In this document: piece by piece, positions 17,151 to 20,623 of the stretch
How positions within the stretch are numbered: position 1 is the first letter of the stretch
Layout of the letters: each line of letters opens with the position of its first letter
NCBI GenBank assembly: GCA_015689775.1
Contig: WVSR01000003.1
Location: 186,001-250,000, forward strand
DNA: 64,000 nucleotides
Source: Rhodobacterales bacterium LSUCC0387
GTDB taxonomy: Bacteria; Pseudomonadota; Alphaproteobacteria; Rhodobacterales; Rhodobacteraceae
Direction: 5' to 3'
Position numbers and translations under genes: made by a program
Notes under the pieces: generated by a model
What the model was told of the DNA's origin: nothing
What the model saw: the letters and a program-made list of their open reading frames with translations, nothing else
Databases searched by the model: none

Positions 17151-19325
17151 ATGAAACGCAAGTTCAATCGAATTGCTTTTGTTACACCAAGTGTTGTTTT
17201 GGCGGCATGCGGTGGAGGTGGCGGCAGCTTTGGCCCATCTCCTACTGGAGAATACGTTGACACGGCATCAGGCATTTACGCTACCGAATATGCCTATAAT
17301 GATATGCTCTCTTCTATCAATCCTCTTTCGTTAAACAACTATGGTTACACGGGTTCTGGCGTTCGTGTAGCAGTTGTTGACAGTGGAATTGACGCAAACC
17401 ATCCCGAATTTAACGGGCGCACCATTTACGGTTACGATTTTGCAAGTAGTTCTTCAGGTTATGCACGAGATGAAAATGGTCATGGTTCGCATGTTGCTTC
17501 AATTATAGCAGGCGAACGTGACGGGTATGGAATGCGTGGCGTTGCGTATGACGCAACACTCTACTCTTACAAAGTTGATAATGACGGAGATGGCGGCCTT
17601 GAAGCCGCTAATACAGATGCTCAGATCACAAGCATTTTTAATAGGCACGTAACTGATAATATCGATGTGTCAAATAACAGCTGGGGGTGGGGTACAAGTG
17701 TAACGTCGGTAAGTTCCGCAACAGCACAGAGCTTGCTGGGAAATACTATGACTGCCGCTGCGGCTGCGCAGAACAACGGCACACTAATAGTTTTTGCTGC
17801 TGGTAATGATGGCAACTCACAGCCTAGTTTGACTGGTGCGCTGCCATATCACGATTCAAGCCTAGCTGGAGCTTGGCTGACAGTGGTCGCTATTGATAAT
17901 AATTTGCGTGAAACTGCATATACAAACCGATGTGGCGTGGCGCAAAGCTTTTGTGTGACCGCTCCCGGTGGCGCTGATAACTCGTCATCATATGGAATTC
18001 GTGCTGCTGACGCAGGAACAACCAGTTATGTTAGGTTAAGTGGCACCTCGATGGCTGCCCCTCACGTCAGCGGTCTAGCGGCTGCCCTAATGGAGAAGTT
18101 TCCAAATCTGACACCCGCACAAATTGCCACACGTATAAAATCCACTGCTTCCTTGGCTTCACTAACCAGTTATGGAGGCGGAACATTAAGTAGTCTGGGT
18201 GAGACAGCCATGCGTGCGATCTTTGGATACGGTCTAGTCAATGCTGAAGGTGCGTCAGCCCAAATAGGTTCTCTGAGCTACCCCATACATGGCACTCTAT
18301 CCGGCGCCGTTGATCTATCAAGTGAACGAGTTGCACTGCCAGCAGGTCTGAGCTCTTCAAGTGTAGGCCAAATCATGGCCTCGACCTATGCAGTATTTGA
18401 CACCTTTGATGGAGCAATCTTTAGGACGTCAGGCGATCAGATTTTTTCAGAGCATTCACAAGCTCATGTTCCGGGATATGCGGGTGGTAGTCTGTCCAGC
18501 ACTTCTGCGGCTTCAGATCACGTTAGTCTCTTTCAATCTGGCGATTATCAATCGGGAACCACTATGGAATACTCTTTTGCGCAGCAAGGAAGCATAGACC
18601 CCGCACATTCATATTGGGGGCAAACAGCCAATCTATTCGAGGATGCGCCCGGTTCTATTTCAGCGCCACAGTTTAAGTTTCAACACACCACATCATACGA
18701 CAATGCGAACATTTCTTATTTCGCAAGCTTCACGGCTGACGCATCAGCGGGCACGAATACGCAGAATGGTGAGCTTGGTGTTTCGGGAAATTTTGGCCTT
18801 ACTGATAGCACGACCCTAATTGCGTCAGCTTCTTTCGGCGATCAGCCGACAGTTCTGGGCTTGCAAGGAAGCGCAATCAATACAAGCTCAGTTCGCATGC
18901 AAGTAGGCCTCCGCTCACAGCTTCGACCCAGCCTAAGTTTTTTCGGGCGATATGAGCATCAGCAATACGATGATATGTCGCCATCAATAATAGCGTTTGG
19001 ATCAAATGACCTTACTGCAGAAAACATGATGTTTGCCGTTGAGGCTGAGTTGCAAAATGGTGGGCAACTCGCAGTTGGTGCTAAAACGGAATATCAATAT
19101 TCAAATGGTAGCGTTAGCCTATACGCTCCAACTAGCGTGACACGATCTGGCGATATTATTTATTCAGAGCAAAGCTTTGAAATGGAGGCAGATAATGTTT
19201 TCCAGCCGTTCCTTGCTTACTCTATCCAAACTGAAAACGGTGCAATAGAATTTGGGGCGGTAGCTTCATCATTCTCAAACCCTAAATTGGAGGGCGTAAG
19301 ATTAGGCATATCACGACACTTCTAA
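17151..19325 (+). CDS. Subtilase-family (S8) serine protease with putative C-terminal beta-barrel, lipoprotein-like
   Basis: A 724-residue exported protease. Residues 1-20 form a lipoprotein-type signal with lipobox L17-A18-A19-Cys20, followed by a Gly/Ser linker. The subtilisin catalytic set is complete: Asp77 (VVDSGID), His111 (GHGSHV), oxyanion Asn219 (AAGNDG) and Ser300 (GTSMAAPH). After about residue 370 comes a linker and then a region of alternating strands (about 480-724) with many aromatic and polar pairs, ending in Phe, as outer-membrane barrels do. The layout matches autotransporter subtilases, though a barrel-type C-terminus with an N-terminal lipobox is unusual. The GC content is lower than in the housekeeping genes. 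The next gene overlaps its 3' end. Confidence 0.85.
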   Translation: MKRKFNRIAFVTPSVVLAACGGGGGSFGPSPTGEYVDTASGIYATEYAYNDMLSSINPLSLNNYGYTGSGVRVAVVDSGIDANHPEFNGRTIYGYDFASSSSGYARDENGHGSHVASIIAGERDGYGMRGVAYDATLYSYKVDNDGDGGLEAANTDAQITSIFNRHVTDNIDVSNNSWGWGTSVTSVSSATAQSLLGNTMTAAAAAQNNGTLIVFAAGNDGNSQPSLTGALPYHDSSLAGAWLTVVAIDNNLRETAYTNRCGVAQSFCVTAPGGADNSSSYGIRAADAGTTSYVRLSGTSMAAPHVSGLAAALMEKFPNLTPAQIATRIKSTASLASLTSYGGGTLSSLGETAMRAIFGYGLVNAEGASAQIGSLSYPIHGTLSGAVDLSSERVALPAGLSSSSVGQIMASTYAVFDTFDGAIFRTSGDQIFSEHSQAHVPGYAGGSLSSTSAASDHVSLFQSGDYQSGTTMEYSFAQQGSIDPAHSYWGQTANLFEDAPGSISAPQFKFQHTTSYDNANISYFASFTADASAGTNTQNGELGVSGNFGLTDSTTLIASASFGDQPTVLGLQGSAINTSSVRMQVGLRSQLRPSLSFFGRYEHQQYDDMSPSIIAFGSNDLTAENMMFAVEAELQNGGQLAVGAKTEYQYSNGSVSLYAPTSVTRSGDIIYSEQSFEMEADNVFQPFLAYSIQTENGAIEFGAVASSFSNPKLEGVRLGISRHF

Positions 19326-19717
19326 GCCTATGCTTATTTTGCTCGTGCGTAGCGGCGGATGTAACCCCTGAATTTAACGTTCAGGAATACACAATTATGT
19401 CCGGATTTTATCCCGAAGACGTATACCTAGATTCAGCACAAATTAGAGAACTTTCGGCTAATGAGGATTTGCGCCTTGATGAAAATGCGCTTGTTTATGC
19501 AACACGAATACTTCCAGATGGTACATATCAGCCGACCATAAGCCATCGGCAAGACGGTTATGGGCCACTATTGATCAATGTTATTTATGATGCTTCTGCT
19601 GGAGCAGGCGTGGCAGTATTAAACCAAAGAATTCTAGTTATTGAGTCATCAAACAGAAGTGAAGGCGTCAGCCTGTTCATTAGCTATCCAAGAGATAATG
19701 CTATTAAGCCGAATTAG
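19301..19717 (+). CDS. Small secreted protein, unknown function; possible ATT start
   Basis: The clear Met start at 19397 gives 106 residues without an export signal. The same frame, however, is open back to a stop at 19283, and codons 19301-19369 encode a textbook signal peptide: Arg-His, then a hydrophobic run LLSLCLFCSC and a VAA cut site before DVTPEFN. No ATG, GTG or TTG lies in that part. ATT at 19301 has GGAGGG at 19289-19294, ideally spaced, so it is the best start and would give 138 residues overlapping the protease gene by 25 bases. Alternatives are a mutated ATG, a sequence error, or the short cytoplasmic form. I do not recognise the mature domain. Confidence 0.55.
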   Translation: MRHITTLLSLCLFCSCVAADVTPEFNVQEYTIMSGFYPEDVYLDSAQIRELSANEDLRLDENALVYATRILPDGTYQPTISHRQDGYGPLLINVIYDASAGAGVAVLNQRILVIESSNRSEGVSLFISYPRDNAIKPN

Positions 19718-20110
19718 GCTGCGTTCTTATACTTCAGATCATGACAAACCTCATTGCCATCGCCACTTGCGCAGAGTTGGGCGGCTAAAAGAGCGTTGTA
19801 GCAAAAACGCCTGGGACTCAATTAAGCTCTCCATTCTCAAAAACCTAATCTGTGTGTGGCAGCATGTACGATATATCTCCCATAGGCCCGGGACACAGTG
19901 TGCAACAGCTTAAAGACTAAGTATCTGTTTATAAGTGTTAAATAGAAGCTAAGCCCCAGCGAGATGTGGGCTGTAGCAACTAAGTCTAAGCATACGTACC
20001 GTTTTGAGCCTAGCGTACGTACCGCCATACGTACCACCGTACGTACAAAATGGTGGCACGTAGGCTAAATCAGGTCAACGAAATAAGAAAATCAATGAGT
20101 TATGAGGATT
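19718..20110. other. Non-coding stretch between small secreted protein gene and tRNA-Ala
   Basis: No gene is supported in these 393 bases. The short open frames have no ribosome sites and no family resemblance. The part nearest the tRNA 3' end carries the 12-bp repeat cluster listed separately. The position just downstream of a tRNA 3' end is a classic site for integration of mobile elements, but I saw no integrase gene and no second copy of the tRNA end in the window. Confidence 0.5.
19991..20046. repeat. Cluster of short TACGTAC repeats beside tRNA-Ala
   Basis: CATACGTACCG at 19991-20001 is followed by three adjoining 12-bp units: GTACGTACCGCC, ATACGTACCACC and GTACGTAC from about 20015 to 20046. 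Each unit contains the self-complementary core TACGTA. Repeats of this size near a tRNA 3' end resemble integrase arm-binding sites or an operator array. That reading is inference. Confidence 0.6.
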
Positions 20111-20186
<76 letters not shown>

Positions 20187-20287: not shown

Positions 20288-20623
20288 CTACTCATCATCA
20301 TCCGAGCCGACATCGGCAATGTCATCAAGCGAAACATTATCGTCATCGTCATCTTCGAGAAGATCATCATCCAGATCGGAATCATCATCCAATACCAAAT
20401 CATCTTCATCATCCAAGATCACTTCATCGTCCGCATTGTCTTTGGCCTTAGCGGCGGACGCGGCAGATGGTTTTTCCACGACCAAGCTGCGGCCACCTTT
20501 ACCAGTGTCCAATGTGACCGTCTCGCCCGTATATGGGCTTACGATTGGGTTTTTATTAAGGTCGTAGAAACGCTTGCCTGTGGTTGGGCATACGCGTTTA
20601 ACACCCCATTCCTCTTTGGGCAT
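20288..20623 (-). CDS. TIGR02300 family protein (FYDLN acid domain)
   Basis: A 111-residue protein typical of alphaproteobacteria. The N-terminal half carries the signature KRFYDLNKNPIVSPYTGE (residues 17-34). The C-terminal half (from about 66) is almost entirely Asp, Glu and Leu and will be disordered and highly acidic. The function is not known. It is divergent from the YgjP-type gene and lies between it and tRNA-Ala. The start at 20623 is the only Met before the conserved part. Confidence 0.88.
   Translation of the reverse strand: MPKEEWGVKRVCPTTGKRFYDLNKNPIVSPYTGETVTLDTGKGGRSLVVEKPSAASAAKAKDNADDEVILDDEDDLVLDDDSDLDDDLLEDDDDDNVSLDDIADVGSDDDE

Follow-up and report, generated by a model that had tools for sequence, protein, structure and literature searches.

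A recurrent ATT codon inside the 3′ end of a subtilase gene is the likely start of a small, putatively exported protein in Alphaproteobacteria

A small open reading frame overlaps the 3′ end of a subtilase gene

The window analysed here, a single stretch of 64,000 nucleotides, belongs to contig 3 of a 2.5-Mb genome (G000). It contains a subtilase gene whose 3′ end is overlapped by a small open reading frame (ORF), which is shifted by −1 relative to the protease and ends at a TAG stop codon (19715-19717). The relevant features are listed below, with the basis for each in brackets.

17151-19325, + strand: subtilase (S8 peptidase) gene of 724 aa with a predicted C-terminal outer-membrane β-barrel (ORF; PF00082; model of the C-terminal 364 aa; barrel matches)
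19287-19316, + strand: codons of the last predicted strand of the protease, LEGVRLGISR, containing both GGAGGG and ATT (DSSP strand 353-362 of the model; invariant Leu and terminal Phe in five aligned proteases)
19289-19294, + strand: GGAGGG, Shine-Dalgarno-like, 6 nt before ATT (sequence; a GGG run upstream in all six copies)
19301-19303, + strand: ATT, proposed start codon (ATT at the corresponding site in 6 of 6 intact copies)
19301-19325, + strand: protease/small-gene overlap of 25 nt, including the protease TAA (sequence; ORFs)
19301-19357, + strand: putative signal peptide MRHITTLLSLCLFCSCVAA, residues 1-19 (by eye and by a simple rule)
19301-19717, + strand: small protein, putatively exported, 138 aa, of no known family (family searches; relatives; dN/dS 0.34 between two relatives)
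19397-19399, + strand: internal ATG at codon 33, the first canonical start of the frame (ATG in 3 of 6 copies, ACA in 3 of 6)

In the small frame, the upstream stop codon TAA (19283-19285) is followed by the codons ATT GGA GGG CGT AAG and then by the ATT at 19301; the next in-frame NTG is the ATG at 19397. A preliminary description of this DNA had stated that no ATG, GTG or TTG precedes position 19397, that ATT 19301 stands at good spacing behind GGAGGG, and that it overlaps the protease 3′ end by 25 bases. The codons, the 6-nt spacing and the end of the protease gene at 19325 (TAA included) agree with all of this. Read from ATT 19301, the frame gives (M)RHITTLLSLCLFCSCVAA-DVTPEF..., and codons 1-19, which end in V-A-A before D, resemble a signal peptide as judged by eye and by a simple rule, in line with the VAA cut site proposed there. 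What the preliminary description missed is that the overlapping protease frame restricts the codons possible at the start column.

Past the small gene lies a tRNA-Ala gene on the minus strand (20111-20186), and three 13-nt copies around ACGTACC (19989-20036) occupy the space between the two. The tRNA-Ala neighbour might be the mark of a gene-gain site, in keeping with the patchy distribution of the gene pair. A member of the FYDLN_acid family (PF09538, E 2.3e-28) is encoded from 20288 to 20623; its C-terminal end carries a long acidic stretch.

The protease is predicted to end in an outer-membrane barrel

A Pfam match (PF00082, E 1.5e-53) places a subtilase catalytic domain in the protease. 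Its C-terminal 364 aa were modelled with moderate confidence (pLDDT 66.9, pTM 0.69). When the model was compared with known structures by VIA-align, porins were matched with Z up to 14.7, and each of the 50 matches listed (Z 13.3-14.7) was an outer-membrane barrel, with the alignment running to the last residue. Foldseek matches included OmpG, AaaA and EspP, at low TM-score, while no Pfam barrel model matched this part of the protein. The protease ends in Phe (Tyr in the relative from genome G747, see below). At the moderate confidence of the model, the C-terminus is thus predicted to form an outer-membrane β-barrel, with the ATT lying over its last strand. In the protease frame this ATT straddles two codons, taking the third base from Arg and the other two from the Leu that follows; this Leu, like the terminal Phe, is invariant in the five aligned proteases.

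The arrangement predicted here, a subtilase domain followed by an outer-membrane barrel, resembles that of the autotransporter subtilases EprS and fusolisin; NalP is another protein of this type. The EprS model of NCBIfam matched the catalytic part of the protease with an E-value of 1e-36. The protease is not assigned to either name, since the scores (126 of 1700 bits for EprS, 51 of 999 bits for fusolisin) lie far under the curated cut-offs. The overlapping small gene is, moreover, absent from those models.

Intact and decaying copies of the gene pair

Compared with 101 relatives, the small protein of the window gave two matches, among them a clear relative from the same family in genome G048 (E 8.8e-12, 33% identity), with homology reaching beyond the overlap (BLAST E 2.7e-17). 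The search of 394 family genomes returned three matches, or 2 of 394 once a spurious one (G211, E 3.5e-4) was dropped; the latter lies inside a 438-aa ORF that by eye resembles a solute-binding lipoprotein. No relative of the window protein was found in the genome contig collection, in plasmids or in viral contigs. Within the G048 genus, another genus of Rhodobacteraceae, 6 of 20 genomes gave matches. The gene is intact in two species, G048 and its close relative G448, and decayed in four other genomes (G449, G454, G440 and G446).

Searching the genome contig collection with the protease C-terminus identified three loci, in IMCC1909, a PS1-clade genome and a SAR116 genome. The first is apparently the same record as G448 and was not counted as a separate copy. 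In the PS1 and SAR116 genomes a small ORF sits behind the protease. With a profile built from the three Rhodobacteraceae copies, the small ORF was the top match both in PS1 (266 ORFs, E 5.2e-5) and in SAR116 (157 ORFs, E 6.3e-6); the reverse profile, from PS1 and SAR116, ranked G048 first of 490 (E 0.0024) and the window copy only third of 440 (E 0.09). By these profile comparisons the PS1 and SAR116 small ORFs are homologous to the Rhodobacteraceae copies.

A five-row profile of the small protein recovered only the window among 385 class genomes (1/385), and nothing beyond the already known copy in sets of 58, 40 (overlapping the 58) and 28 genomes. The protease profile matched in 5 of the 385 class genomes and gave, beside the window, one further full-length relative, in the AT-rich alphaproteobacterial genome G747 (29.5% GC); three partial matches (L033-L035) were left out of the copy count. 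The same profile found no relative in viral contigs, and a purD search of 34 class genomes gained no handle on SAR116. The small ORF of G747 is not a significant sequence match: among 140 ORFs it came eighth with one profile (E 4.2) and second with another (E 0.27). It is counted as a copy by position, frame, length and signal peptide and not by sequence.

The intact copies therefore number six, from five lineages: the window, G048 together with G448, the PS1 clade, SAR116 and G747. Each of the six small ORFs is read in the −1 frame relative to a subtilase of this type, whose 3′ end it overlaps. The sample is small, with two close relatives and one member homologous by position only, and the pair is rare and scattered.

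The whole protease matched 89 records of the plasmid collection. In the only one of the 89 inspected (H1), no small ORF overlapped the protease 3′ end. On seven Ensifer plasmids (H2-H8), subtilase-like matches fall where the gene table, known to be incomplete, lists no feature. Lipid A acyltransferase-like genes flank the pair in SAR116 (L027 535-2431, also LpxK) and in G048 (L002 1844-2959). These are possibly shared neighbours; they were identified from translations by eye and coincidence is not excluded. We found no publication on this protease/small-gene pair in a search of titles and abstract openings, outside which most subscription journals lay.

The decayed copies indicate, from what remains of their sequences, that protease and small gene decay together in the G048 genus. 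In G449 (L022) the small gene is frameshifted with its ATT kept, and the protease is in three short pieces; G446 (L024) has a small-gene fragment and only the N-terminal part of the protease; in G440 (L023) a small-gene fragment remains, with no protease piece at E 1e-3. In G454 (L021) the small frame stays open for 142 codons, but TTT replaces the ATT. Since its protease survives only as two short pieces, our own reading is that this frame is a recent relic, although another start could be used there.

ATT is the only start-like codon common to the intact copies

The ATT at 19301 had been proposed as the start in the preliminary description, which suggested comparing the start codon in homologues. 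The comparison supports the proposal: ATT occupies the corresponding site in all six intact copies and is the sole start-like codon that they have in common, in the contexts AAG-ATT-AGG (window), CGA-ATT-AAG (G048 and G448), GAA-ATT-AAA (PS1), AAA-ATT-AAA (SAR116) and AAG-ATT-ATC (G747). Initiation at this codon remains an inference. The same recurrence eliminates a read error at 19301, which had been raised as an alternative. With ATT read as Met, the N-termini are MRHITTLLSLCLFCSCVAA, MKLFASILTSAFLLNCSA, MKLFYAVLVILLVVDTTAQ, MKYFLSLLIFIFAGEVSAQ and MIIRLLVILSLTGLPFFSYANQ, all of them signal peptides by appearance, with openings that include MKLF..., MKYF..., MRHI... and MIIR....

The copies differ in what else the frame offers. 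Three of them, the window, PS1 and SAR116, have ATG at codon 33 and no NTG in the stretch that separates it from the upstream stop; in G048, G448 and G747 codon 33 is ACA. G747 has no NTG between the upstream stop and ATT, its first NTG being a TTG at codon 9. An in-frame TTG ten codons upstream of ATT provides a usable alternative start in G048 and G448. An AUU with no NTG upstream therefore occurs in the window, PS1, SAR116 and G747, but not in G048/G448. Homologues beginning at the position of 19397 would have spoken against the ATT; no copy lacks the upstream signal-peptide stretch, even though three of the six do have ATG at codon 33.

In every copy a run of at least three G lies 4 to 9 nt upstream of ATT, within a Gly codon of the protease. 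The Shine-Dalgarno-like sequence is GGAGGG in the window and GGAGGGGG in G048/G448; PS1, SAR116 and G747 have only the weaker GGGG or AGGG. No RNA structure common to the copies was seen by eye among local folds at the ATT. The overlap measures 25 nt in five copies; in G747 the protease ends two residues earlier, which leaves 19 nt.

Related proteases without a small ORF carry other codons at this column: CTT in G365, GTT in G018 and GGT on the NT-25 plasmid, with Phe, Phe and Val, respectively, at the place of the Leu. That such proteases simply lack ATT near their ends was ruled out by two of them: −1-frame ATT codons occur elsewhere near the protease end in G365 (open for 27 and 3 codons) and on NT-25 (open for 8 codons).

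Chance and codon usage

To gauge how often such an arrangement arises by chance, we took 362 ORF ends from five genomes, counting only ORFs of 150 aa or longer, and examined the last 12 codons in the −1 frame. These contained 97 ATT codons, of which 17 opened frames of at least 60 codons; 7 of these 17 passed a simple signal-peptide rule, which was our own and was devised with the target sequences already in view. Of the seven, six belong to the five homologous loci (the window contributing twice, with ATT 19286 and ATT 19301), and the seventh, L036, is unrelated.

Given the protease amino acids and local codon usage, the probability of the pattern xxA-TTR that creates the ATT is 0.030 in the window genome, 0.19 in G048, 0.23 in PS1, 0.53 in SAR116 and 0.50 in G747, where the AT-rich background makes ATT common. 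The joint probability over the five lineages is 3.6e-4. All five use TTA for the Leu, and the product of the TTA-only values from the same table is about 1.4e-6; because the Leu codon is TTA, codon 2 of the small frame begins with A, and it encodes Lys or Arg in four of the five lineages. Both calculations were chosen post hoc and ignore shared ancestry. With that reservation, codon usage alone is unlikely to account for the choices that create the ATT.

The small protein

The 138-aa product belongs to no Pfam or NCBIfam family. Its structural model (pLDDT 68.2, pTM 0.60) gave no Foldseek match at E 0.001 and a best VIA-align Z of only 2.8. Three weak resemblances were taken as chance: SAKe6AC-LB, from a profile search of PDB sequences (E 7e-6), rests on 13 residues with no stretch passing alone, and mtrE (E 0.086) and DUF1796 (E 0.039) are below the cut-off.

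Between G048 and G448, dN/dS outside the overlap is 0.34 in the small frame, as opposed to 0.90 and 1.22 in the other two frames; between G048 and G454 it is 0.38 in the small frame. The first comparison rests on 20 differences in 426 nt and has modest power. Within that power, these ratios indicate that the small frame is under purifying selection.

The small protein is probably a periplasmic partner of the protease. We infer this role because the two genes overlap, occur together and decay together, and because gene pairs with short overlaps are reported to be enriched for complex subunits in a large survey, known to us in part (PMC10666635). Whether such a partner would be a chaperone or an inhibitor cannot be distinguished, as no informative family or fold match is available.

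Alternative starts and modes of expression

Translation from the ATG at 19397 would yield a 106-aa protein without signal peptide and would make the upstream frame accidental. This ATG is the first canonical start in the window and has counterparts at codon 33 in PS1 and SAR116, but the ACA codons of the other three copies, and a stretch upstream that is open and signal-peptide-like in six of six (with one other case by chance among 362 ORF ends), render this start very improbable. The true start could instead differ between species, being the TTG ten codons upstream of ATT in G048/G448 or the TTG at codon 9 in G747. Both are in frame, and TTG is a normal start codon. Neither is shared, however, and three copies (window, PS1, SAR116) offer no NTG of any kind ahead of codon 33; besides, the upstream TTG would put ten residues before a normal MKLF start, and the TTG of G747 would remove the charged part of the signal peptide. 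We consider species-specific starts of this kind improbable.

Another way of dispensing with a strong start codon would be for ribosomes terminating on the protease to step back 16-22 nt and reinitiate, in which case the codon itself would matter little. The fixed overlap (19 nt in G747 and 25 nt in the other five copies) would suit this mechanism. When ribosome recycling factor is lost, non-canonical codons are reported to serve as starts, although these lie downstream of the stop codon (PMC2268962, available in part). Against it, recurrence of ATT itself would not be expected, and the survey cited above, in the part available, gives a window for termination-reinitiation of −8 to +6 nt (PMC10666635). 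The present overlap is longer, which points to direct initiation, perhaps after a translating ribosome opens the mRNA, and leaves reinitiation with little to recommend it. Finally, a −1 frameshift near the end of the protease gene might produce the small frame as a fusion to the protease, since the two frames overlap there in the matching register. No slippery heptamer common to the copies was seen by eye at the overlap, however, and a fusion product would lose the last barrel strand of the protease and carry a signal peptide internally; we attach almost no weight to this mechanism.

A proposed start codon, probably held in place by the protease frame

We consider it likely that the small gene, paired with that of an outer-membrane subtilase, truly begins at ATT 19301 and that its product is exported, AUU initiation and export both being inferred in the absence of expression data. 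The observations behind this interpretation are the sequence, the synteny, the recurrence of ATT, the constraint on the start column and a barrel prediction of moderate confidence. From the comparison of copies, translation probably does begin at this ATT, with the overlap keeping the codon in place, although this has not been demonstrated.

The ribosome-binding site and start of the small gene would lie within codons of the last strand of the protease, the former over a Gly and the latter over the Leu. As long as the Leu is kept, the −1-frame column would be limited to NTT or NCT; ATG, GTG or TTG could not arise there, because the protease codon would become TGN (Cys, Trp or stop). ATT is the member of this set with documented natural use as a start. 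The fMet initiator tRNA would start at the AUU, aided by the G-rich site, and the yield would be low relative to the protease and probably sensitive to IF3. The product would then be exported and most likely act as the periplasmic partner of the protease, either chaperone or inhibitor. Low level, IF3 sensitivity and partner role, like AUU initiation, are inferences, which holds also for the low expression that the preliminary description associated with AUU starts. The overlap with the protease frame is enough to explain why a weak start codon would persist, whether or not it is useful to be weak. We give even chances to the wider proposal that the last strand doubles as the −1-frame ribosome-binding site (Gly codon) and AUU (Leu codon) of an exported partner, and that this constraint fixes a weak, IF3-sensitive start over the long term and sets a low ratio of partner to protease.

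A recurrent AUU start with a visible reason would make the persistence of weak starts directly testable. Gene finders restricted to ATG, GTG and TTG would call a 106-aa product without signal peptide at this locus. Further cases might come to light in a survey of barrel genes for NTT starts near the 3′ end, in the −1 frame, that lead into a signal peptide.

Comparison with known non-canonical starts

To our knowledge, very few bacterial genes have been shown to start naturally at AUU. The infC gene, encoding initiation factor IF3, starts with AUU in E. coli, AUC in Streptomyces and AUA in S. aureus; it shares with the present case a non-canonical, AUU-type start kept in evolution, and IF3-dependent repression lies behind the infC start (PMC5472188, PMC13009471; these and the following sources were available in part). 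The difference is one of logic: infC autoregulates the very factor that judges start codons, whereas the small gene described here encodes an exported protein, overlaps another gene and has no evident autoregulatory logic. The pcnB gene of E. coli is reported to have an AUU start that limits expression (title of a reference cited in PMC13009471). It resembles the small gene in this codon and encodes an unrelated protein. We do not know of pcnB lying in an overlapping gene.

Staphylococcus aureus offers cvfC1, a small-protein gene with an AUU start, strong Shine-Dalgarno pairing and conservation among staphylococci, and ccpN, with an AUA start; in reporters, such starts are described as giving about 10% of AUG output, with one AUA site reaching at most 30% when the medium was rich (PMC13009471). 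Like the gene studied here, cvfC1 uses AUU to start a small protein, but it is the first gene of an operon in Firmicutes, whereas here the start lies inside the 3′ end of the upstream gene in five alphaproteobacterial lineages. The sigR gene of Streptomyces has a conserved non-canonical start as well, a GTC found in 32 of 34 species and repressed by IF3, which is reported to repress non-canonical starts; the codon is a different one, and no forcing by an overlapping coding frame is apparent in the available part of the source (PMC5472188). If the inference of AUU initiation holds, the small gene would work like infC, pcnB, cvfC1, ccpN and sigR, and what would be new relative to them is a start inside an overlapping barrel gene, an exported product and recurrence across several alphaproteobacterial lineages.
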